Origin: Eucommia ulmoides
Taxonomy: Eukaryota > Streptophyta > Magnoliopsida > Garryales > Eucommiaceae
Reading direction: 5' to 3'
Length of the DNA stretch: 64,000 nucleotides
Assembly (NCBI GenBank): GCA_016647705.1
Contig: CM028333.1
Coordinates: 28,866,743 to 28,930,742, forward strand
In this document: positions 16,718-46,646 of the stretch, one piece after another
How the letters are laid out: the number at the start of each line of letters is the position of its first letter
Position numbering within the stretch: position 1 is the stretch's first letter
The notes under the pieces: model-generated
What the model was told of the DNA's origin: nothing
Database searches by the model: none
The model's input: the letters and a program-made list of their open reading frames with translations, nothing else
Program-made: the position numbers and the translations under genes

Positions 16718-17753
16718 ATAAAATTCTCTCTCATTCCGTCTATTAATCACAAATAAAATTTAGGAAAAATCTACTAATTGTCCTAACTAATAACACATAA
16801 CCCATAGATTATTGGACTAAAAATACCTTGCCCATTTTAAACCTTGAAACAAAAATTTCATTTGATTTTTTTTTTTTAAATGTAAATTTCCAGATGTCAA
16901 TTATACCCCTCTGAAAATACTAAGTTATTTTAGGAAGTCAAGGATAAAATTAATTCTTATTAACTTTTTGAAATTGTTGGCATATATATTCGATAACTAA
17001 TTAGCCTTAATATCAGGATTATCATTTGGAAAACTAAAAAATTCAAATTTCAAATTTCAAAAATTTATAGTTCCTTTATATAATCATATTTCGCATTTTC
17101 TTGAAATTTTTTGGGTTCAAGAACCGTATAATCATCGATATTTTCTGGAGATTACGATTTGTAGATTAGGCTGTGGAGATTGATTTTTTTTTTTTACCAA
17201 GTGATTTATATTTTTTTATTTTTCTCCAACGCAAAAGAGGATTTGGTAATTAAAGGAGGTAAGCAAAAAAAATATTTTTGTGTTCTCATGTTTGATGTTG
17301 AAAACCACAACGTGAAGCTCAATACAAAAACAAAAAATTATTTATGAATGTAACGATTTTCTATTATTTATACATTTTCAGTATTGCTTTCAACAATGTT
17401 GATTTCCATAGAATAATTTTTTTACATTTTATCCACTCTTTCAAATCCACTATGTGTATTTATCAGTTTCTAGTCCATATGTTTATTTATTTTTTATTTT
17501 TTTTATGGAAAATACTAGCGTATCGACGATATTCGGATTTTTATCACAAAACTCATTCACATAATCACCATTATTGTCGCCAATGGTTTTGAGTTTGAGA
17601 GAGAGTTTGATTCGGTTTAGTGACAAAAATGTATGTTTGGTGTAGGTAAATTCCCTAATATGATCACCATTCCCAGTATTTTTACAATTAGCAGTGAAAT
17701 TAACACCGCGAAATTGTCAAGGGAAGTTCACAAAAGTGGCAGTTCTGATAATG
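16718..17753. other. AT-rich spacer, no gene seen
   Basis: No coding frame with family features and no clear element ends. The last 90 bases (about 17665-17753) already resemble the tandem repeat that follows (GTGAAATTAACACC, GTTCACAAAAG) and may be a worn extra copy. Confidence 0.4.
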
Positions 17754-18240
17754 GATAAAATCTCATGTTATGCATATTCATTTCACATAATAGAACACTG
17801 TGTTCAAATTAACACACCTACAAAATTGTGAACAAATTGGATTATTTGAAAATGGATAAAATCTCATGTTACGCACATTAATTTCGTATTATACTGCGCT
17901 GTGTTGAAATTAACACACTCGCAAATTGTTAATAAATTAGATTATTTGAAAAAAGAATTAGATCTCATGTTACGCACATTTATTCTGTATCATACAATAC
18001 TGTGTTCAAATTAACACCCACAAAAATATTAATAAAATAGATTATTTGAAAAAGGAATAAGATTCCATGCTACATACATTCATTTTGCATTATAAAACAC
18101 TATGTTGAAATTAATACACCCGAAAAATTATTAATAAATTAAATAATTTGAAAATTGATAAGATTTTATGTAATGTACACTCATTCTGTGTCATACATCA
18201 CTATGTTGAAATTAATACACTTGCAAAATTTTAAAGGGAA
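17754..18240. repeat. Five-copy 101-bp tandem repeat
   Basis: Units start near 17754, 17855, 17955, 18055 and 18157, periods 100-102 bp. Each has an ATCTCATGTTACGCACATT-like start, then a TGTGTTCAAATTAACAC-like centre and ATTATTTGAAAA at the end. Divergence between units is considerable. Non-coding. Confidence 0.8.
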
Positions 18241-20138
18241 ATTTATTATTTCGCCGTCAAAAGATATAGATATCAGATTATAAACTCCCAACTACAATAA
18301 TAAAGTTTTTGGTCCCCAAATATTTTTTGAAAATAGTTCTCTTTTCTTTGACCATCTTTTTTTCATTATTTACATACAATACCATTCTGTAAAAAAATAA
18401 CAAGACATGGATATTCACATTTTTATTTTGCTATTTTTAAACATTTTAATATATTTTCATGTCTAGTGCTTATGTGCATTTTCATTGTTTTTATATGAAC
18501 AAAATTATGTTGTTGTTATGTTCACACGTTCTTTTATTTTACGTTGTTTTGTTATGTTCAAAAAATCTACAAAAAAAAAAAAAAAATGAAAAAGAAAATT
18601 CACGTTCTTTGTGTTATGATCATTCATGTTACTATTTAAAATAGTTATGAATATTCAGGGGGAAAATCTAAGACCATGAAAAACAAACCGATATGAACAT
18701 TTCACTAAACCACATGAACATTTACCAAAACAATCAAGAAACAACAAATCAAGATATTGAAAATCTCTCTATATCAATAAAAATAAAACCAGTATGAACA
18801 TTCACAAAAAAACAAAACCCCCGATATTAACGATCACAAAAACTAAACTGATCAAACAAGAACAATCATTAATGTTCACAAATCGATGAGAACAACAAAA
18901 TTAAACATTAATAAAATCTTAAGTCAACTTTCACAAAACGTTAAAATAAACCCTAAGATCGACAAAAATAAAATAAAATTGTGTGAATATTCACCAAACA
19001 CCAAAACTAAATTAAAAACATTAACAAAAAACACACATCGGTGTACATTCACCAAAAAACAAAAAAAACCAATATGAACGGTCACAAAAAACAAAATGAT
19101 CAAACAAAAAATGATCACAAAACATTAACAAAATCAACGCAAACAACAAAATAATAGTAAAAAAAAAAAATCCTAAATCAACGTTCACAAAACATTGGAA
19201 ATAAACCCTAAAGATTAACATTCATAGACAAGTATGAAACGTTCACAAATTTGGAATAGTAAATGGCCTTCATCGTCATCATATATTGATAAACATTCCA
19301 AGATCTGAATCTGAGTCCAATGAACGGAGAATGAACATTGGATCTGAGTCACGAACGAACATTTGATCCAAGTCACGAACATTGAATCTTGATTTGAGTT
19401 ACGAAAGATGAACTATCGCGGATAGAAGGAGACAACTAACAAACCATCGTGACTAGAGAGAGACGAACGATGATGGTTCGCAGACCTCCATACGAACGGT
19501 GATGTTTCACGGGTGAGAGAGACACGGCCGACGGTAGAGAGAAAAAAAGAGCATGGTGAGAGAGCAACAGTTGCGGTTATAAGTTTGCACATCCAAATGC
19601 TCCTCTTGGGTACAACATCTGCTTCTTGAACCTTGCTTTCGATGGGTTCACAAACGCTACTCAAGATTAGGGTTTTGATGAGTATGGTCTTTGCTTCTTG
19701 GGACATAATGTTGGGGATGAATTTATGGGGTATCATTTATAATACAGTACAGAGATGAAGAGTATGGGATGGTTATGACAGATTATAGATTTAGGGTTTC
19801 ATATTTATACTGGGGTATTACTGTCCATTTGTAATTTTTTAACTTACAAAAGATTAAATAATAATAATAGAAGGATTAAATAATAACATTTTTGTTTAAA
19901 AGGTTAATTGAGGAGAGAGAAAGTGAAATTAGGTCTAAATAATAAAAAAAATCCAATTTTGAAATGTAAAAATATACAAATTGTGTGTATATTTTATATT
20001 GGCTTTTAATGTGTATCATGAATTTGAAGTACAAAACTACTAATTTCATAGTTAAAGTATTCATAAATTGGATTATTTGATGATATTTAGTGTATTAATA
20101 TATTATCTTAAATAACATTGGTTAAAAAATTGTTATAT
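18241..20138. other. Repeat-rich spacer, no gene seen
   Basis: From 18640 to 19260 the DNA is A-rich on + with irregular recurrences of GAACATTCAC and GTTCACAAAA. From 19300 to 19500 related units containing CGAACATTTGATC appear. Together they look like an eroded short-period repeat, perhaps an old non-autonomous transposon. The open frames here are low-complexity and show no family motif. Confidence 0.4.
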
Positions 20139-35006: not shown

Positions 35007-36324
35007 CTCTCCTGAGTGTCAAACTCTGTATTCTCAAACCAACCAATATATCATAACAAGCATATAATGGAAGTAATAAAACGGTAAACATAATCGGATA
35101 AAGATAAACAATCATTAATAAAATATCAATTTATTCAGATCATGTTTTCATGAACAAGTCACTCCCTAGACAATAAACATTTATCTACACATGACCATAG
35201 CCCAATATTTAACAATACAATAGATAAACATCATTAAAACAACCAACCAAAGTCAAAAATAAAATAGAGAAATAAGCGAGAATAGCCAAATCTGAAGAAC
35301 GGGTGATTCCACGTGAGCTAAGTTCGTTCCAATCTCATTTTCGCCTCTTCAAATGGATGATCCTCTTGGTTGGTATGGTCTTAAAGCTCTCAAGACACTC
35401 TTAAAAACGTGCCTTAGGTGTTGGGGGAAGAGGGGATATCATAGGGATCTAAAATATCTCAAAAAATATCCCAAAATATCTTATTCAGGTAGAACCAGAC
35501 CGCTGCAGCGGTGGGAAGTCAGTAGGTCCACCGACCTTTCACCGTAGCAGCAGTGAAGGCCACTACTGCAGCGGTGGTATTTTGGCCATAACTTGCTCGT
35601 CCAAACTCCGATTGAGATGATTCAAAAATATATGAAAAGTTAAGATATAGATCTACAACTTTCATGTTTCGAGATTTTACAAAATCGGATTGCATCATTG
35701 TAAAAATAGCCTTGAAGTTACTGCACCTGAACCGAATTTGCATTTTTTCACCCATTTATTCAAAAACCTATAAAACAATACAAATACACATTAAACTAAC
35801 AAAAATACTTAAAAACACACAAATATTTGAATTTAAAAGTACTTGATTTGTCGAGAAATAAATAACTCATCAATGCACCTTTATGTAGTCATCTGCGCAT
35901 TGCGCAGAACCCATCCCTCTTTCATTTTTCTTTTGTAATGGCGGGGCCCACGTCTCTCTCTCTCTCTTTCTCACATATTTCCCTATTTGTTTCCTCTTCT
36001 TTTTTTTTTTTTTTCCTTGTCAGTTTTTTTGTTTCTTTTTATATTTTCATTTTTTGTTCTTTTTTCCCTTTTCTATCTTTTTCTCTCTCTTTTTTTAATC
36101 GTTTTTTTTTTTGGTGTGTTTTTTCAAAATCATAATAAAATAAAATGAAAATATATAGAGTGAATTAAAAATAAATTAATTTTTTTTAGAAAGATGATCA
36201 AAATGCCGTATCTACAATAAGTACTATTCACTTGTTGGTTATTATTCACATGGATGGTAACTCGTATTGCCTACAATAAAAAAATAGAATGAAATATAAT
36301 TAGGAAAAAATTAAAGGGAAAATT

Positions 36325-36427
36325 ACCGTTTACTCCCAAAAAAAATAATTATTTACCGTCTGCTCCCCGCCTATTTTCCTTGCACCGATCAATCCCATCC
36401 GACAGCTTTTCTTGCACCGGTTAGTCC
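36325..36427 (+). repeat. Left terminal iterons of the MULE
   Basis: ACCGTTTACTCC (36325), ACCGTCTGCTCC (36355), ACCGATCAATCC (36384) and ACCGGTTAGTCC (36416): four copies of one 12-bp core, 29-32 bp apart. The first starts 9 nt from the element end. They are likely transposase contact sites, by analogy with subterminal sites in other DNA transposons (inference). Confidence 0.8.
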
Positions 36428-37029
36428 CGTCGGCGGTAAACATAGCACGGAAAACTCCCGGTTCCAAAAACGGCGATGAGGAGATTACCGAAAATGCCCT
36501 TCCGTGTTTCGCGCCAACGACGATTACCTTATTTAGCTTACGAGTTTTCTAATTTTGCAACGGTACATTCATTCGGAAATCAGAACAGGGTGCAGTCGTT
36601 AGGTTGTTCAATATTCCGATTTCAAGATCGAGAATCTTCATCGTCGGCGCAGATTGAGCTTTTTGTGATCATCAAACTGACACAGGTAAGAATAAAGGCT
36701 AGATTTGCGATTCGAATTTGCAGAATTAACGCATCAATTGATTTCTACATATTCGATCAAATGCATTAAGTTATATATTTTTCGCCGGAATTCTTGTTTT
36801 TTACACACAACGAGCGTAGTCCATGAAGGAATTCATACTTTGATTTGGTACATCATGTTTTTTGATTAAATATGTACGCCGAGTTGATGAATCAATATCG
36901 AAAACACATACTTATTGTACGATTTGTATCGATCTAGTTTAGCTGACTCTTTTAACATGTTATATTCAACATCTGAACGAGTTTTCTTTTTGTTTTAGAC
37001 AATTAGTATGTGTTTTCTGATGAATGTCT

Positions 37030-37520
37030 ATTAACGTGTTGAATGTAACACGGCTTGTGTTCATTATATAAGTTTTTATATTAACGTGTTGAATGTAACA
37101 CGGATTGTGCTCATTTTTATCTGACTTTTTTTAATGTATCACTGATGACAGTAATGTTACATTCAACATCAACATGAGTTTTTGTTTTTAGACAATAAGT
37201 ATGTATTTTTTTTTAGACAATAAGATGTTGAATATAACATGTTAAACCAGTGCCCTTTTTAATAGGACAAAGAGTGTTACATTCAACATGACCACATCTA
37301 AATCAATAATTAGATGATGACAGTAATGTTACATTCAACATCAGCATGAGTTTTTGTTTTTAGACAATAAGTATGTATTTTTTTTAGACAATAAGATGTT
37401 GAATATAACATGTTAAACCAGTGCCCTTTTTAATCGGACAAAGAGTGTTACATTCAACATGACCACATCTAAATCAATAATTAGATGATGAACAATAATA
37501 TTACGTTCAACATCCACTTA
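37030..37520 (+). repeat. Left subterminal repeats with TGTTACATTCAACA motifs
   Basis: Two units of 172 bp (37144-37315, 37316-37487) nearly identical, preceded by two copies of TTAACGTGTTGAATGTAACA (about 37032, 37083) and followed by a partial third unit. Each unit holds forward and reverse forms of the 14-bp motif. This lies just upstream of the transposase start and may act in its promoter. Confidence 0.85.
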
Positions 37521-37596
37521 ATCATATCATATAGTTGGTTATATTTCACATGAACATAACACAACTAACATTTAATGTGAATGATATTTCACATAA

Positions 37597-40064
37597 ATGG
37601 CATCATCAATTGCATTAATGTGCAAATATGAGAATGTGACAATGGTTTTGAGGATGACAAGCGGCAGCAATTTGGTTGAATTGCGTGAAAAAATAATAAA
37701 TAAATGGTCAGATCTATTCATTGCCAACTTTGAGTTGTCATACTCACTCCCGGGACATCCAAAGTGTACACTTGATGATCAGAATGATTATGAAGAAATG
37801 TTTTTGGTGGCTGCCCACATGAACATTAATTTTTTAGAAGTCTGTGTCCAAAAAAAGGTGAGTGAATCAAGTGCATCTACTGGTGCTTCTTCATGTGCAA
37901 CTTTACCCCCAAACAATTGTGTCAATGGTGACAGCGACGGGGAAATGGATTATATAGGAAGCTATGGTGATATGTTACAGTTAAGCAATGACAAATTGCT
38001 ACTTTTCTCAATTTGGGCTGATGGTATTCAAGAGGTGGGGCAGAAATTCAGGGGAGGAACAAGTGAATTTCGTATGGCTTTGAAGAAATTTGCTGTAGAA
38101 GTTGGGTTTAATTTTGTCTATATCAAGAATGATAAAACACGCGTGACAGCTGAATGCTCACTACGGGAGGATAAAAAATGCCCATGGTTCGTGCATGGAA
38201 GGGTAAGGAGCGAAAACGGTTTTTTTTTATATTCGAACTCTTGTAAAAGAACACGCAAGTAGAGCTGCATTTCGCACCAGTAAGAACAAAAAATTGACGT
38301 CAGAAGTTATTTCATCATGTTTGGCTGATGAGGTTCGTTCCAACCCCGAAACTCGCCCGATTGATGTTGTTTACACTTTTAGGAAACAATATGGGCAAGA
38401 AATAACATACCGGAATCCATGGATGGGGGTAGAAAAGGCCAGGAATAATGTCTTTGGCGATTACTCGTCATCCTATGATCAATTGAGATGATACGTTGAT
38501 AAATGTAAGGAGACAAATCCTGGCAGTCACATTGCATTAGAATACAATTTGGAGACAGGACATTTCATGAGAATATTCATTGCGTTTCAAGCGTGTATAC
38601 ATGGGTTTAGGTTCTGTCGGCCAATGTTGTTTCTTGATGGCACATTCCTAACTGGTCGTTACAAAGGCAATTTATTAGCGGCAACAGCGAAAGTTGGGAA
38701 TCAAGGTACGTTTTTGTAAGTTTTTTGTTTGTTACATGTAAGAATGTTACTTTCATCATGAAAATGATAAGAACATTTGATGTTACATTCAACATCCACT
38801 GGTGTTGAATGTAACATCTTAAGGATTTTATTATTTACATATATAAACACAAGTGACCAATTGATGTTACATTCAACATCCACAGTGTTGAATGTAATAT
38901 CTTATGGATTTTACTCTGCATACATACATCAATAGAACACTTGATGTTACATTCAACATCCATAAGTTGTTGAATGTAACACCTTGTGGATTAACAATTT
39001 TCTGTTTTTCCGATCATGCAGGGATGTTTCCACTTGCATTTGCTATTGTTGATGCAGAGAATGATGATAACTGGGCTTGGTTTTTATTGGAAGTTAGAAA
39101 GATTGTTGAGCCAGAGCTTGTCATAACGTTCATCTCTGATCGGCATAACGGAATTTTGGAAGGGGTACGTGAAGTGTTTCCACACTGTCACCATGCTTAT
39201 TGTTTGCATCATTTGAAGATGAATTTAAGAGCTGCGATGACTGGTACAACTACAGCATTTAAAAATATAATGGTTCAGAAATTGAATGGTTTGGCATATG
39301 CACATTCACCAGAAATGTTTAAATTTTTATTTGATCAAATGATTAATGAAGGATGTACAAAGGTGCATAACTTCATTCAAGAATTATCACCACAAAAATT
39401 TAGTAATGCTTGTTTTAGAGGCAAGCGATATGGTGAGATGACGTCTAACTTGGCGGAGTGCTTCAATTCATGGATAAGTGAATATCGTCATCTACCGGCA
39501 ATTTTGTTGATTGACAAAATAAGGATACGATGGATGGACTTAATGGCGGAGAGGAGAAATGAAGCGAACAAACTACAATCTGAGATCAGGCCAAATTGGG
39601 AGAATAGGATGTGTGAATTAATGAACGAAGGACGAACATGGAATATCGGTTCTTCAGGAAATGGTGTATTTGAGGTCTATTCTAACCCTTCTATTCTAGT
39701 TGATATTGAAGGACGCACATGCTCATGCCGACAATGGCAAACAAAGGGATTCCCATGTGTTCATGCTTTTGCAGCTATATATAAGAGTGGATTACCTACA
39801 TTCAATTACATAGAGGACTATTTCCGAAGCTGTTTTTACCGTGAGACATACTCAAGAGGTATATATGCAATTCCAACAATGGAACGACCAATTTTGGGTG
39901 AAAGTGAAGCAATGATATTGCCTCCGTTGTCAAAGAAACGACCAGTACGGCCGAAGAAAGTTAGAATCCCATCTAGAGGAGAGGTAAAAGAAAGACGGTG
40001 TGGTAGATGTGGGAAAATGGGTAGACACAATAGGAAAACATGTAAGGCACCTCTAAATGAATAA
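37597..40064 (+). pseudogene. MURA-type MULE transposase, near complete
   Basis: Cuts and joins the element's DNA in the nucleus. Two exons: 37597-38705 and 39022-40064 (GT-AG intron, phase 1). Order: PB1-like N-terminus (about residues 1-90), MULE N-terminal domain (FAVEVGFNFVYIKND, CPWFVHGRV), DDE core with FLDGTFLTGRYKG (Asp codon 38636), FISDRHNGIL (Asp codon 39138) and SNLAECFN (Glu codon 39456), the HHAYCLHHLKMNL motif after the second Asp, a SWIM finger CSCRQWQTKGFPCVH, and a CCHC knuckle CGRCGKMGRHNRKTC at the end. Two lesions: a frameshift in a T9 run (38220-38228) and TGA at 38489-38491 after DQLR, where the family has Trp. All catalytic residues survive. Confidence 0.92.
38706..39021 (+). 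other. Intron of the transposase gene with hairpin repeats
   Basis: Bounded by GTACGT and GCAG. It holds three inverted pairs of the 14-bp motif; the first, GATGTTACATTCAACA then TGTTGAATGTAACATC with an 8-nt loop, is a perfect 16-bp hairpin. Positions 38731-38972 match 42083-42320 in reverse orientation at about 95%. Confidence 0.85.
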
Positions 40065-40715
40065 TCATGAGGTGGATCTTGATTTTTTTTTGTCAAATTT
40101 TTTTCAAATAATAATGTTCTATTTGTCATAATTTTTTTTTAAACAATATTGAATAAAAAAGCAGTGCATTTTTTTGTTCAGATTATGTTTTGCATTCAAC
40201 ATTTTTGTCATAGGCTTCTTTGTGTTACATTCAACACTCTCATAGGCTTGTTCGTGTTACATTCAACACTGTCTATTGAAAGTAACACGTCAATAGACAG
40301 TCATTTTTGCGTTTCTTTAACATGTTGAATGTAACATCGTCTGAAAAAAGGTTTTTGCGTTTCTGTTAACGTGTTGAATGTAACATTTTCTATTTTCCAC
40401 GGAAAACTCCATTTTTTTTTCTATTAACGTGTTGAATGTAACACGGCTTGTGCTCATTTTTATCTGACTTTTTTAATGTATCACTCATGTTCCGCGATAC
40501 ACCATATTATTTCCCTCCAAAACCGCACATTTCGTACCTTCTGCAGAGATAATGCGCCGGCGACGTTTGTTTTGGAAAACATGCCCTCACTCAAATGTCA
40601 TTTTTGTACCGATTCATTTCATTTCTCAAACTTTTCATCTTCTCGCATACGCAACAAAAAAACACCTCTCTGCTCTGTTCTCTCCCGTCGTTCTCATCCT
40701 CAAACCGGCGAAAAA
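40065..40715 (+). promoter_or_regulatory. Intergenic and promoter region of the Ulp1 gene
   Basis: From 40190 to 40450 at least six copies of the 14-bp motif, several preceded by TTAACG or TCAATAGAC. The block 40423-40486 (ATTAACGTGTTGAATG to AATGTATCACT) is almost identical to 37081-37143 upstream of the transposase, so both genes share an upstream module. Confidence 0.7.
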
Positions 40716-43700
40716 ATGGTGCACACAAGAAGAAAAATGGTGACTAAGAATCCTAACAGGGCTGATGATCCTGTAAATCTGTCTGATTCAGGTACTGTGT
40801 TCTTTGTCTTATCTTTGATAATGCTCTTTACATGCACACGAAACACATATGTTGAAAAGTGCAATTATGTTGATCGTAACATTCGTTATATATGTAACAC
40901 TGTTTGTTGTTTTTTGAAAAAAATGTGACATCGTAATGATTGTTTAGAAGATGTCCCGTTCCGTCATGTAACGCAACAAACGAACTCATCCACTGAATCT
41001 GATGAGATCATAGGTAAGTAATTTTCCTTCTTCCATTAACTGTTTTATTGGTCTTCCTACCAAATCATCTATAAATGTGTAGTATGTACTTTTAAGCTTG
41101 ACTGCATTGCATTTGTTTTTTGGTAGTTTCACAGCCAGAGAAGACTGTGCAACCAATAAAATTCCGTTCAAATCTATCGCAATTTCATTCGTTAATCAAG
41201 TCTATTAATCTTCAACGTGAACACTTTCAAATTCTGCGGACAATTCTATTTTGGAACACAATAAATGCTCTCCTGCGATGGGAGAGTGGAATCAGTTCAT
41301 TCCACAAAATAGATTCCCTCATCGCCAATATCATTCGCTCATATGAACCACATAAAAAAGCGTTCAGGCTTGGATCAAAACTGGTTACATTTACAAGCAA
41401 TGATGTCCAGTTGATTTTTGGATTACCACTAGGGAATGAACAACTCCCTGGTCGTTATGCAAAGAAAATGGGTTCTAAATTCTTAGCAAGGAGGCGCTTG
41501 GCTAAAAACAGGTTGAGTGTTGTTGAGATAAAGAATGAAATTGTCAAAGCATTGGCCAGGAATAACCATGAAGAAGTACAAGATGTTGCTCGTCTGCTAT
41601 GCTTGCATCTCATAGCAACTTGTTTTTTTTCAAACAAGGGTCAAGCTGCTGGTGTGTCTGATATCATGAATGTTGAGGATTTAGGAATGATGGTGACTTA
41701 TAACTGGGCTGAAGCAATTCATTCAAACTTGATGTCATCGATTTCCTCAGGTTATCGCAGACCAGAAACTGTTACTGGATGTGTTATCGCATTGCAGGTT
41801 ATATAATTCTCTTTTTTTACATTGTTCTATAGCACATATCATTTTTCCCCTTATGTTTTTAGGTTTCAAATTTAATGATGTGGTGCATTTTTTATTCAGT
41901 TTTGGTTATGCGAGCACACATATTTGCTCAAAGAAGTTGAAGGGCGGCAATATTCTATTCCACGCTGGGAAAAGTGGGACATGATGCAACTTATGGAAGT
42001 TGCATCTGGTTTGGAATTGTCCCAATTGCCTGATAATCAGGTATGCATGTTATATGCAAACATGTTCTCTGTTATGTATCATCACCTTGTGGATGTTGAA
42101 TGTAACGTCAAGAGTTCTATTAATGTCTGTATGCAGAGTAAAATCCATAAGATGTTACATTCAACACTGTGGATGTTGAATGTAACATCAATTGGTCACT
42201 TATGTTTATATATGTAAATAATAAAATCCTTAAGATGTTACATTCAACACCAGTGGATGTTGAATGTAACACCAAAATGTTCTCATCATTTTCATGTTGC
42301 AAGTAACATTCTTACATGTACTGTTGTCTAGATTAAGCGGGCTGAAATTAAGGAAACAATGGCTGAAATGCAAATGGGTATTGTGCTTCCAAGTCATACT
42401 GATATTGAATCGTCTAGTCGGGATAAGAAGCACAAGGGCAAGAAGAAGGTCGATTCGTTAGAATTTCCTTCTTTTGACCTCAAGATTTCTCAAGAGTTCA
42501 CTACTGATGTTGCTGAATTCTATGGGGGGGTCCCAAAACTTGGCTCAGCTTGTACAAAGAAATGAAAAACTTGCTGGTGATTATGATCGTCTGAAGGGGG
42601 AACACAAAGAGTTGAAGAAGAAATATTAAAAAAAAAATAAAAAAATTGAAGAAAGAGATTGCAATTTTAAAAGCCCAATTGATGAATTCACTGGTTGAAA
42701 CAGAGGTACACGTTGTTATGCAAACGGAAAAACTTGTTACTGAAAAAGCAGTACTCCAGGAACATCTAGAAGAGGCTGTGGTACATTCTGTTACACAGTC
42801 TATTCAGAAAGAGCAGGAATTCAAAGAACAGGTTGTGGAGATCGCAAAGTTTTATAATTCGGCATTAGAAGAGCGCGAATCTGTTATTGCCCAACAAGCA
42901 TGTGAGATTACCAAACATGATCGTGAACCAGTAGTCAAATGTCCAAATGTGCCTGACAAAATGGTTACACGAAGAAGTACACGTCAAAAAACACATATGA
43001 CAACTCCCACATCACTTGTAAAAAATGTTAAAAGCCGCGCGAGGACACGGAAAACTGGCGAGGGGTCAGTCCATGAATATCACATTCCTGCAAAACGATC
43101 GAAGAAGCTTATAAAAGCTACTGAGAAGGAAAAGCCAGTGACAACCAATCATTCAAAGGGCACTACAGTATATCAAGGAGAATCCAGCAAAATGACTGCT
43201 GAGTTGGATGAGTCATGCATGCTGCCTTCCCGAGATAGTGTTGTGGCTATGATGTTAACTGAAGACGAATGGAAACTTCTAGAGCTTATTATGCAAATAG
43301 AGGGTTATACGTAAGTCTCATTTTTCCATCTTTATTATTTTTCATTTTCATCTATGTCTCGATTGTTTTGTGCTGATCCAATGAAAAATATTTTGTTCTT
43401 TATACAATTAGAGCTTTCGTTTGGGGTGGAGAATGGACTTTTGGACAGGTCTCCTTTGTTGACATTCTTGATCTACTATGGGAAAAACAGCTGACAAATT
43501 TTGTGAGTTACCCTGTATATTTTTTTTTTTTTTGTTTTTATTTAATCTATATGATGTTACATTCAACATCTGTGGATGTTAAGTATAACATGTATTTGAC
43601 ATTATAAAACTCTGATGCATATTCTAAACGTATTGATGCTTATTTAATCAGGTCATCAATGGTGTTATGGAGCTCTTGTGCCTCGAACAAATGAATATGG

Positions 43701-44588
43701 CAAATGATTTAAAACAGCTTGGCGACATTCTTGTTGATCAATCATTTTTCATAAATAGTACATGTTGGGTGAGTACATTTTGCTTCTTTTCCATTTGACT
43801 GTTATACATCTACAAAATTTATTCACACATACGGTAAAAATGTTTTCTACAGTCATGGATTCTTGAAGGGGATGAACTCACACTTAACAAATTTTTGAAC
43901 CCTGACATAATCCGTGCCTTCACATCTGAGTGCCGTTATATTCATTTTCCCATAAACACTGCTGGCCCTACTCCAACAACTGGGCATTGGACCTTAGCTG
44001 TGTGCGATAAGCAAGAGTCAACATGGCGTCATTATAATTCTGTTAATCTGAGACGAAGAGGCATAGTTGACCCTTTTTTCGAAAATGCGAAAAAACTTGT
44101 AAGCTTGTATTTTCATAAAATCATTTTTTGTTGTTGTTATAACCAACAATAATTGACGATTTTTGTCCACCTATAGATTGCATACGTAGATCAACTACTC
44201 AGCAAAAATAATGTGGAGCATGAGTGGGCTAATCCTTCAGAAGATAAGATGCTGAATGTTGGTGATGTACCAGATCAAGGTTCATCAGCGTAAGTACTGC
44301 ATATATAACTTAATAATTTAAGTCATACATCATTCAATAAAAAAAAAAAAAAAGGAACAGTTGTTTGAATGTTGGTGATGTTGAATTTACAGTGTTGATT
44401 GTGGAGTATGCGTCATCCATGTAATGAAGAAAATCTTTAGGAAGGAGAAAATCCTTACAAATACGGGCTTGCATGGTTTTCGCATGGAACGTGCTGCTAT
44501 CATTCATGACTTCTTAAATGATGCACCAAGAAGATGGACGCTTGACTCATATCACACACGCACAGCAAATGAACCCAAACCTAACTAA
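40716..44588 (+). pseudogene. Transposon-encoded Ulp1-type (C48) protease gene
   Basis: Cysteine protease of the SUMO-protease fold carried by the MULE; its substrate is unknown. Exons: 40716-40791, 40948-41013, 41127-41797, 41900-42040, 42332 to 43310 (broken), 43412-43502, 43652-43768, 43853-44098, 44177-44289, 44393-44588; all GT-AG with matching phases. N-terminal helical domain FRLGSKLVTFTSNDVQLIFG and FWLCEHTYLL, similar to the DUF1985 or plant-mobile-domain-like part fused to ULP genes. The middle is a charged, coiled-coil-like, basic linker. C-terminal protease: TTGHWTLAVCDKQESTWRHY NSV with catalytic His, Asn where Asp is usual, and QGSSAVDCG with oxyanion Gln and catalytic Cys. Lesions: a frameshift at the G7 run 42523-42529, and TAA plus a shift in the A-rich 42626-42645. 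Confidence 0.88.
42041..42331 (+). other. Ulp1-gene intron 4, inverted copy of the transposase intron
   Basis: Bounded by GTATGC and TCTAG. Positions 42083-42320 are the reverse complement of the repeat in the transposase intron with about 12 differences in about 235 bp. It contains the same hairpin pairs of TGTTACATTCAACA. Confidence 0.88.
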
Positions 44589-44739
44589 AAAATAGACAAA
44601 TGGTATTGAAGTTCTAGATTTCCACAATTTTTTTTTTTGGAAACTGTTTTCCGAAGTTATTTTTTGGATGTAATCCATTGTATATACACAATGTCATACA
44701 CATTTTTGTTGCTGTCCTTTCTTATATGACAGTGTTTAA

Positions 44740-45560
44740 TGTAACAGCCCTAACAAATTGGAATGACAAAACAAAATAGACAAATAATGGTGTTTTTCAG
44801 AAGATGTTACATTCAACACGTTAATAAAAGAAAATTGAATTTTGTGAATACAAGCCGTGTTATATTCAACACGGCAATGGACACAAAAAATGACGTTTTT
44901 CTGTTGAAATAAGATGTTACATTCAACACGTTAATAGACAAAAAAAAATGGTATTTTTCAGAAGATGTTACACTCAACACGTTAATAAAAGCAAATTGAA
45001 TTTTGTGAACACAAGCCGTGTTACATTCAACACGTCAATGGACACAAAAAAGGACGTTTTTCTGTTGAAATAAGATGTTACATTCAACACGTTAATAGAC
45101 AAAAAAATGGTCTTCTTCAGAAGATGTTACATTCAACACGTTAAGAAAAGTCAATTGATTTTTGTGAACACAAGCTGTGTTACATTCAACACGTCAATGG
45201 ACACAAAAAAGGACGTTTTTCTGTTGAAATAAGAAGATGTTACATTCAACACGTTAATAGACAAAAAATGGTCTTCTTCAGAAGATGTTACATTCAACAC
45301 GTTAAGAAAAGCCAATTGAATTTTGTGAATACAAGCCGTGTTACATTTAACACGTCAATGGACACAAAAAAGACGTTTTTCTGTTGAAATAAGAAGATGT
45401 TACATTCAACACGTTAATAGACAAACAAATGGTGTTCTTCAGAAGATGTTACATTCAACACGTTAAGAAAAGCGATTCAATTTGTGAAGACAAGCCGTGT
45501 TACATTCAACACTTCAATGGACACTAATTGACTTTGTGAACAGAAGATGTTACATTCAAC
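44740..45560 (+). repeat. Right subterminal 161-bp tandem array
   Basis: Units start at CAGAAGATGTTAC near 44798, 44959, 45118, 45279 and 45440 (periods 159-161), the last one shortened. Each unit has three copies of TGTTACATTCAACA followed by CGTTAATAGAC, CGTTAAGAAAAG or CGTCAATGGACAC. It lies downstream of the Ulp1 stop and before the right terminal iterons. Confidence 0.9.
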
Positions 45561-45771
45561 ATGTAAAGACACGCAAATTTACTTTGTAGATCTTACAGGT
45601 TAGATATTATAGATCGTTTTTTAGAAATCAGAACAAAGATTTTTCATTAGCGTTTGGCATGATGGAGTTGCGCGAATTAAGTTGCGTTAGAACAAAGATT
45701 TTTCATCAGCGTTTTAGCGGAAGGATGAGCGCCTAATTAATGAAGGGTAAAATCGTCCAACGTGGACAAAA

Positions 45772-45842
45772 GTCCTGATCGGTGCATGAAAAAGCGGCTA
45801 GGTTTATTCGGTAATTAGCGGCGCTTTTTAGGACTAATCGGT
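45772..45842 (-). repeat. Right terminal iterons of the MULE
   Basis: Read inward on -: ACCGATTAGTCC (45842-45831), ACCGAATAAACC (45812-45801) and ACCGATCAGGAC (45783-45772), 29-30 bp apart. The first starts 9 nt from the right end, mirroring the left side. Confidence 0.8.
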
Positions 45843-45912
45843 GCGCGGCCCAAAATTAAATAATGATGAGACAGTGTGATTACCCACCACCACCTCCTCC
45901 TCCGCCTCATGT

Positions 45913-46646
45913 TGTAAACTTCCTCTCGTGTTTTATTTCCACGGAGGAACCTTCTTCATGAACAGCCCCTTCAATTCCATGTACCACAATTTTCTCAACA
46001 TTTTTGCCGCCCAAACCAACGCCATCGTTGTCTCAGTCCACTACGGCAGGCCGCTGGAGGAGACACTCCCGATGGCTTACGATCAGTGCTGGAGGGTGGT
46101 CGAGTGGGTCACCACCCATTTGTGCGTTGACTGTGATGAGTGGCTAAGGGAATACGCCGATCCAAAGCGCGTGTTCTTCGCCGGAAAAGCGCCGGCGCAA
46201 ACATTGCCCACAACATGGCCATCCGGTTAGGTGAAGACGAAGCCAAATCGCTTAAGCTAAGAGGAATGGTTTTTCTGTGTCCTTACTTCAAGGGAAAAGA
46301 TCCGATTCATGGTAAGACTACAGATCTTGAAACAAGAAACTCCGTTGATAAGTGTTGGCGGATTGCATGCCCCTCCACCGTGGATAGCGATGACCCATTT
46401 TTTAACCCGGTTAAGGATCCGAGATTATCAAACCTAGGTTGTCGGAGGGTGCTGGTATGTGGTGCTGGGAAAGACAAATTCAAATCCAGGGTGTGGGATT
46501 ACTATGAGACATTGAGTAAAAATGGTTGGCGAGGAACGGTGGAGATTATGGAGACGCCAGCGGAACTTCATGCGTTCTTTATGTATCATCCTGTTTCTGA
46601 TAATGCTAAGGCTCTTCTGAAGCGAGTGGCTTGCTTTATTAATTAA
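45913..46646 (+). pseudogene. Carboxylesterase (CXE/GID1-like alpha/beta hydrolase) pseudogene
   Basis: Plant carboxylesterases of this family hydrolyse small esters. The fragment starts at CKLPLVFYFHGGTFF, the oxyanion HGG motif that normally lies near residue 70-80 of about 320, so roughly the first quarter is missing. It continues NAIVVSVHYGRPLEETLP, AYDQCWRVVEWV and YADPKRVFFAG. There one base is lost (about 46184-46188) exactly at the GDSAG nucleophile elbow, removing the catalytic Ser and shifting the frame. The rest follows in the next frame: GANIAHNMAIRLGEDE, CGAGKDKFKSRVWDYY (catalytic Asp), ELHAFFMYHPVSDNAK (catalytic His), ending in TAA. It starts 53 bp after the right MULE duplication. 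Confidence 0.9.

Follow-up and report, generated by a model that had tools for sequence, protein, structure and literature searches.

What could keep one short word of DNA repeated throughout the introns, promoters and subterminal regions of a transposable element and out of its exons? The question is raised by a Mutator-like element (MULE) at positions 36316-45851 of a 64,000-nucleotide stretch of the Eucommia ulmoides genome (the window; contig CM028333.1, positions 28,866,743 to 28,930,742). This element, with a transposase (MURA) gene and a second gene encoding a Ulp1-type protease domain (the Ulp1 gene), contains 48 sites of the 14-mer TGTTACATTCAACA (33 exact, 15 with one or two mismatches), all of them within its 4,689 non-coding bp and none within its 4,847 exonic bp. 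The pattern is probably best explained by a sequence-specific anti-silencing system of the VANDAL/VANC kind, in which a dimeric protein, most likely the product of the Ulp1 gene, reads the motif.

The 14-mer in the window copy and its close family

An earlier reading made from the sequence only had reported more than thirty exact or near copies of the motif in subterminal regions, promoters and introns, but not in exons; the recount bears this out, with neither exact nor mismatched sites in the exons. Across the window, 49 matches with up to two mismatches were found against 1.5 expected from shuffles, and 48 of the 49 are inside the element. In a search that presupposed no motif, every one of the 10-mers with the strongest clumping in the window belonged to the 14-mer (35 copies; the best outside the element had 6). 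The sites are distributed as follows:

36958-37512, unstranded: 5' subterminal array, 10 sites (6 exact) in both orientations, 171-bp tandem repeat of 2.2 units
38706-39021, plus strand: MURA intron, 7 sites (5 exact), six of them as inverted pairs 21-23 bp apart
40188-40443, unstranded: intergenic array preceding the Ulp1 gene, 7 sites (5 exact)
42041-42331, plus strand: Ulp1-gene intron 4, 6 sites (4 exact)
43503-43651, plus strand: Ulp1-gene intron 6, one exact site and a decayed inverted partner
44733-45561, unstranded: 3' subterminal array, 16 sites (12 exact), 15 in plus orientation, 161-bp tandem repeat of 4.7 units

Intron 1 of the Ulp1 gene has no exact site and a single one at up to two mismatches. 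Counted individually, the sites of the window copy give a binomial p = 1.6e-15 for non-coding placement; by our own estimate the independent evidence within this copy is nearer p = 0.01, because the sites form about seven clusters, two being duplicates of each other. The word is a partial dyad, its mirrored positions agreeing at five of seven (by eye), and its flanks are as symmetric as the site (R in 47 of 48, Y in 46 of 48). Every cytosine of the 14-mer falls in CHH context for the two flanks tried.

Close relatives repeat the placement. At 30 MURA exon 2 loci, none of 506 sites falls within 65,768 protein-matched bp, and at 30 Ulp1-gene exon 3 loci one of 479 falls within 56,575 (both sets include the window copy and are partly the same elements). 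The MURA intron holds sites in 24 of 24 parsed loci (172 sites) and exon 2 none, the six unparsed loci of the 30 having been dropped. A short family-specific motif concentrated in non-coding parts, as in VANC-type systems, is thus present.

Duplication inside the element is directly visible. One kind of array (5' subterminal, intergenic and 3' subterminal) has units of about 40-150 bp in common, and another (MURA intron, Ulp1-gene introns 4 and 6) common inverted pairs about 21 bp apart. The intergenic array shares homology with the 5' array (97%, 39 nt) and, in inverted orientation, with the 3' array (79-81%, about 150 nt), while 42079-42320 in intron 4 is 94% identical, inverted, to 38733-38973 in the MURA intron over 242 nt. 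With motifs masked, the MURA intron and intron 4 are 96.9% identical to each other in the window copy (128 nt) and 96.7% in a relative about 87% identical to it, L071 (183 nt), whereas between the two copies the MURA intron is 93.2% (205 nt) and intron 4 88.4% identical (311 nt), over stretches that differ in length. The intron pair is closer within a copy than the same intron is between copies, which suggests concerted evolution within each element.

The inverted pairs also raise the possibility that the motif acts as RNA, through intron hairpins that aid splicing or feed small RNAs. The MURA intron RNA (38706-39021) is predicted to form three strong hairpins from motif pairs (folding z = -7.4). 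However, 15 of the 16 sites of the 3' array point in the same direction and are unable to pair mutually, and the subterminal arrays are outside the coding parts of the genes, making this reading very remote. The MURA and Ulp1-gene transcripts would also be complementary to each other over about 240 nt.

Half-site switching across the genome

Two 7-bp half-sites make up the 14-mer in a head-to-head arrangement: A (TGTTACA), then the reverse of B (TGTTGAA). A genome-wide count, which the sequence-only reading had proposed as a check, was made in the 946,670,599-base assembly, in which the window is on contig 9. The exact A-B word occurs 16,912 times (8,487 and 8,425 on the two strands) against 15 for its reversed word. 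A spacer 14-mer taken beside the motif in an intron array has 68 copies (10 for its reversed control); among them are 12 pairs on opposite strands, 3.3-3.5 kb apart, as expected from the inverted introns. Most motif sites therefore lie in copies or subfamilies with other spacers, or in other DNA. The A-A palindrome TGTTACATGTAACA has 6,566 sites (reversed control, 2) and the B-B palindrome 1,634 (control, 1), whereas another palindrome of the TGTT...AACA form has 10, over ten contigs (control, 1). The whole class TGTTNNATNNAACA amounts to 47,364 against 2,655 reversed; the A-B, A-A and B-B words make up about half of it, and decayed or other variants the rest. At least 151 matches to Ulp1-gene exon 3 (150 of 2,602 candidates scored) and at least 118 to MURA exon 2 (117 of 4,677 scored) are present, so that the listed family size is a lower bound. 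Whether the motif is equally dense in unrelated repeats, the outcome that the sequence-only reading named as its own refutation, was covered in part by two unselected genomic clusters: one is related to the family arrays (84%, 123 nt) and the other is undecided. A literature text search for the 14-mer, in a collection with few subscription papers, gave no match.

The motif differs between related subfamilies. The A-A word, a perfect palindrome of the left half-site, is used in the same compartments by one subfamily (MURA identity 67-72%). Its representatives L070 (19 exact A-A sites, one exact A-B) and L073 (nine and none) form one clade of the MURA tree with support 100/100. All of ten further MURA introns (67-76% MURA identity) carry the motif, five as A-B (72-76%) and five as A-A (67-72%); eight have an exact site and the other two only sites with one or two mismatches. 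An exact A-A site precedes the MURA acceptor sequence at 47 distinct places (control, 0), nine of which coincide with listed MURA exons, and among 43 MURA places at 67-76% from the listing, nine have the exact A-A pattern, all at 68-71%. Of eleven Ulp1-gene places hand-picked on contigs shared with A-A introns (not a rate), nine are 2.6-4.2 kb from such an intron, one is 12.7 kb away and one has none. Mixed motif types occur in some clusters, also in locus L001.

Deeper branches of the family, L069 to L073 (four 9.5-kb stretches and one of 4 kb), were compared with the window copy wherever compartments could be defined, introns being taken from tblastn exon edges. None of the 233 sites in these six stretches is in their 20,529 protein-matched bp; with the 506 and 479 sites above, this supports the view that the motif belongs to the non-coding DNA of the family. 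The Ulp1 gene is on the same strand as MURA in the window copy and inverted relative to it in L069, L071 and L072, yet all three have motifs in the MURA intron, and L071 and L072 also in introns 4 and 6 (undefined in L069). The flip is seen even in L071, where the intron arrays stayed. Between deep subfamilies, the masked spacers of the MURA intron and introns 4 and 6 hardly align: the best matches, where there are any, measure 6-17 nt, the longer exceptions being 29 nt in intron 6 of the window copy and L070, 26 and 30 nt between L070 and L072, and 46 nt at 80% between the sisters L069 and L072. Motifs nevertheless persist in each of the three introns, for the most part in the version typical of the subfamily. 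A motif kept across unalignable introns is poorly explained by chance or by simple inheritance of arrays, and well by selection for a binding site.

These comparisons bear on two other explanations. In a neutral, satellite-like expansion by slippage and copying, the motif would have no function. Clear tandem and inverted duplications fit this, as does motif conservation that is not significantly in excess within the close family. For the array of 161-bp units, motifs have fewer variable columns than spacers (3 of 42, spacers 26 of 102; p = 0.012); the intron pair (4 of 84 in motifs, 11 of 159 in spacers; p = 0.59) and the pair of 171-bp units (0 of 42 and 2 of 129; p = 1.0) show no significant extra constraint on the motif. 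Neutral expansion accounts less well for motifs that stay near-identical between arrays while the flanks differ (mean pairwise identity 0.80-1.0 against 0.26-0.52, partly built in, as the sites were motif-picked), for their retention in three introns with turned-over spacers, and for the amplification of A-B, A-A and B-B but not of the one other palindrome of the same form. It appears quite improbable. The motif might instead be the site of a host transcription factor, collected by the elements as a tissue enhancer; some elements are known to carry host-factor sites, and those here are near both promoters and in introns. Recombination of half-sites into A-B or A-A by subfamily, in the same introns and with tens of sites per element, is however a better fit to a co-evolving, element-borne reader than to a fixed host factor, and this origin is unlikely.

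Ends and genes of the element

The element is bounded by a perfect 9-bp duplication, the length given for MULE target sites in a passage of PMC2528002. The boundary features are:

36307-36315, unstranded: left target-site duplication AAAATTAAA, identical to 45852-45860
36316-36430, plus strand: left terminus, iterons YACCGNNTANTCC at offsets 9, 39, 68 and 100 (up to one mismatch)
45771-45851, minus strand: right terminus, mirrored iterons at offsets 9, 39 and, more weakly, 68
45852-45860, unstranded: right target-site duplication AAAATTAAA, identical to 36307-36315

Iterons thus stand at offsets 9 and 39 from both ends with up to one mismatch, where the window's own rate predicts about 0.12 matches (up to two mismatches) per 240 bp on one strand, and offsets 66-76 from both ends share an exact 11-nt match. 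The ends are 67% identical over 67 nt and have no long inverted repeats, i.e., they are degenerate termini as in VANDALs and other MULEs without terminal inverted repeats (TIRs). Rfam gave nothing at gathering score within 36200-46000.

The genes between these ends were resolved as follows:

37597-38705, plus strand: MURA exon 1, PB1-like region (below cut-off), DBD_Tnp_Mut, start of the catalytic domain
39022-40064, plus strand: MURA exon 2, MULE transposase domain and SWIM finger, frame open
40716-44588, plus strand: Ulp1 gene, 10 exons with GT-AG introns
43853-44588, plus strand: exons of the Ulp1 catalytic part, retaining His (GHW) and Cys (DCG), with Asn in the usual position of Asp

The two MURA exons join at NQ|GMFP, and three profiles exceed the Pfam cut-offs (MULE 1.9e-20, DBD_Tnp_Mut 8.7e-14, SWIM 3.8e-7), as expected of a MURA-type transposase. 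The Ulp1 gene encodes, in order, a PMD/DUF1985-like region, a coiled-coil-like and basic middle (by eye) and a Ulp1/C48 domain; Peptidase_C48 reaches 25.9 bits (cut-off 20.7), placing a Ulp1 domain within a MULE. The duplication, mirrored iterons, MURA gene and Ulp1 gene were all named in the sequence-only reading and are found here. Its "complete MULE" holds for the ends; the genes are damaged: MURA exon 1 is frameshifted near 38220 and interrupted by a TGA at 38489, and exon 5 of the Ulp1 gene has two frameshifts, near 42528 and 42625. Its "DUF1985-like N-terminus and protease" stands for the protease, while DUF1985 matches below the cut-off. Homopolymer runs are present at three of these four lesions. 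The window copy as assembled is predicted to be unable to make either protein whole, so that it would depend on relatives.

The catalytic Asp of Ulp1/SENP proteases is usually spaced 17 residues from His. The Asn at this place is common to the window copy, L070, L071 and L072. A lesion of the window copy alone is ruled out by the three relatives; the Asn therefore looks like a trait of the lineage, and the domain may have a working Cys-His-Asn site or serve for binding only. For the Ulp1 part, no credible relative was found in the PDB.

MURA itself might read the motif via its MuDR-type DNA-binding domain, for transposition or hypomethylation of the element. It has DBD_Tnp_Mut and SWIM domains, the motif type tracks the MURA tree among the copies examined, and maize MURA causes TIR hypomethylation according to a passage of PMC10398659. 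Set against this, the outermost sites (up to two mismatches) are 642 bp and 290 bp inside the ends and the 14-mer is absent from the tips, which have separate mirrored iterons; moreover, recognition of ends needs no arrays in Ulp1-gene introns. As the iterons give the transposase a site of its own, the Ulp1-gene protein seems the better candidate, and a MURA reader is a less likely but serious alternative.

Elsewhere in the window, 17746-18215 is a separate 101-bp tandem array of 4.7 units with a TGTTGAAATTAACA-like core, at best two mismatches from the 14-mer and possibly belonging to another system. A second MULE around it was considered and rejected, no convincing ends being found among exact 9-bp repeats. 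It is followed at 18238-19250 by degenerate, loosely spaced repeats like TGAACATTCACAAA, after GGGAAATTT, which resembles a MULE end. Directly to the right of the element, 45880-46646 contains carboxylesterase-like open reading frames without the usual N-terminus (by eye).

A candidate anti-silencing system

The VANDAL21/VANC21 and VANDAL6/VANC6 systems of Arabidopsis are likewise degenerate-ended MULEs with a transposase gene; their second gene has a DUF1985-type region (passages of PMC5735166 and PMC10398659), to which the Ulp1 gene of the Eucommia element has a match below the cut-off. In passages of PMC5735166, VANC21 is placed in introns, intergenic and terminal non-coding parts via YAGTATTAY, in arrays that are tandem repeats, a related VANC uses another motif, and the coding probes tested lack the motif; the short motif in tandem arrays of non-coding DNA and its difference between related families are shared with the Eucommia element, and the VANDAL precedent invoked in the sequence-only reading holds for placement. 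The same non-coding parts of VANDALs are targeted by RNA-directed DNA methylation (passage of PMC10398659), and Ulp1-carrying VANC genes act on the motifs of their own group, as stated in part of a 2026 review (PMC13317346). The differences are that VANC motifs are 8-9 bp long (YAGTATTAY; AGTTGTCC/AC) as opposed to a 14-bp dyad of recombined half-sites, that the Eucommia element has a Ulp1 domain unlike VANDAL21 and VANDAL6, and that a third, VANB-like gene, present in VANDALs, was not seen in the element. Binding and demethylation were shown experimentally for VANC; for the Eucommia system they are predictions from sequence. Sasaki et al. 2022 (EMBO J) reportedly deal with DUF1985, DUF287 and Ulp1 domains and with helical phasing of motif sites; priority for parts of the anti-silencing idea lies with that study.

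Maize MuDR resembles the element in its MURA-type transposase and 9-bp duplication. MuDR has long TIRs and MURB, whereas the Eucommia element has mirrored iterons that are short, and its second gene encodes Ulp1. A Ulp1 domain beside the transposase gene is also found in Kaonashi (KIU) and in further MULEs from Arabidopsis, melon, rice and grapevine; in KI-MULEs, Ulp1 is opposite to mudrA, an arrangement found in L069, L071 and L072 but not in the window copy, whose genes share a strand (passages of PMC2528002 and PMC13317346).

In the proposed anti-silencing system, the element would be one copy of a large MULE family with degenerate termini. The motif, its placement, its copies, the switching and the duplications inside the element are seen directly, whereas protein binding, the identity of the binder, its dimeric state and loss of methylation are inferred. 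A dimer is suggested by the dyad together with the changed half-site and the coiled-coil-like stretch. A dimeric nuclear protein from the element, most likely the PMD/DUF1985-Ulp1 product dimerizing through its coiled-coil-like middle, would bind the 14-mer arrays at both gene promoters, in introns and in both subterminal regions. Binding would keep or make these non-coding stretches free of DNA methylation, allowing expression of both genes in this family only. The arrays multiply through tandem duplication and are copied from one compartment of an element to another, and a reader with an altered half-site preference would found a new, separate system, as in the A-A subfamily. More tentatively, half-sites A and B may form a recombinable code for self-recognition: within one genome, different subfamilies of a single MULE lineage would pair them as A-B, as A-A and possibly as B-B, to be read by dimers of the element's Ulp1-type protein, a switch of the pair giving an insulated anti-silencing system with genes and introns in place.

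Several observations weigh against these proposals. The PMD (E 8.4e-6) and DUF1985 (E 7.8e-4) matches of the Ulp1 gene are both under the Pfam curated cut-offs, as they are in two relatives. Phasing of sites at 10.5 bp is weak (p = 0.04 for all neighbours, 0.24 for distinct spacings). One coding-matched site is an exact A-B word (L035:2911; one of 985 over 60 close-family loci), conservation of motif columns does not significantly exceed that of spacers across 24 of the 30 close copies (1.7% against 2.8%, p = 0.14), and codon positions diverge alike in the close family, as in dead copies. As for the switch, intron 4 of L070 has one exact A-B site beside one exact A-A. In exon 3 of the Ulp1 gene the window copy is 55% identical to L069 and L072, all of A-B type, and 56% to the A-A copy L070, so that motif type does not simply track protein divergence; divergence of MURA fits the switch equally well. 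The B-B word had no match in the MURA-intron test, which tied none of its 1,634 sites to a MULE. Half of the listed B-B sites (25 of 50) are in clusters; on contig C1, where ten listed MURA or Ulp1-gene places were compared with the 50 listed B-B sites, no distance is below 41 kb. A-A and B-B sites are found within 1 kb of each other at C1:19286358-19287153.

The experimental elucidation of sequence-specific anti-silencing comes from the VANDALs of Arabidopsis. Relative to the known VANC systems, the dyadic half-site code and its switching look new: the 947-Mb Eucommia genome has tens of thousands of candidate sites in two subfamily versions, one half-site apart and in the same introns. How readers and targets change jointly is an open question that would be directly testable here with two proteins and two probes, and the motif may serve as a short tag through which methylation could be removed at chosen loci. 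If the proposal is true, the 16,912, 6,566 and 1,634 exact sites would constitute a very large selfish network of binding sites.

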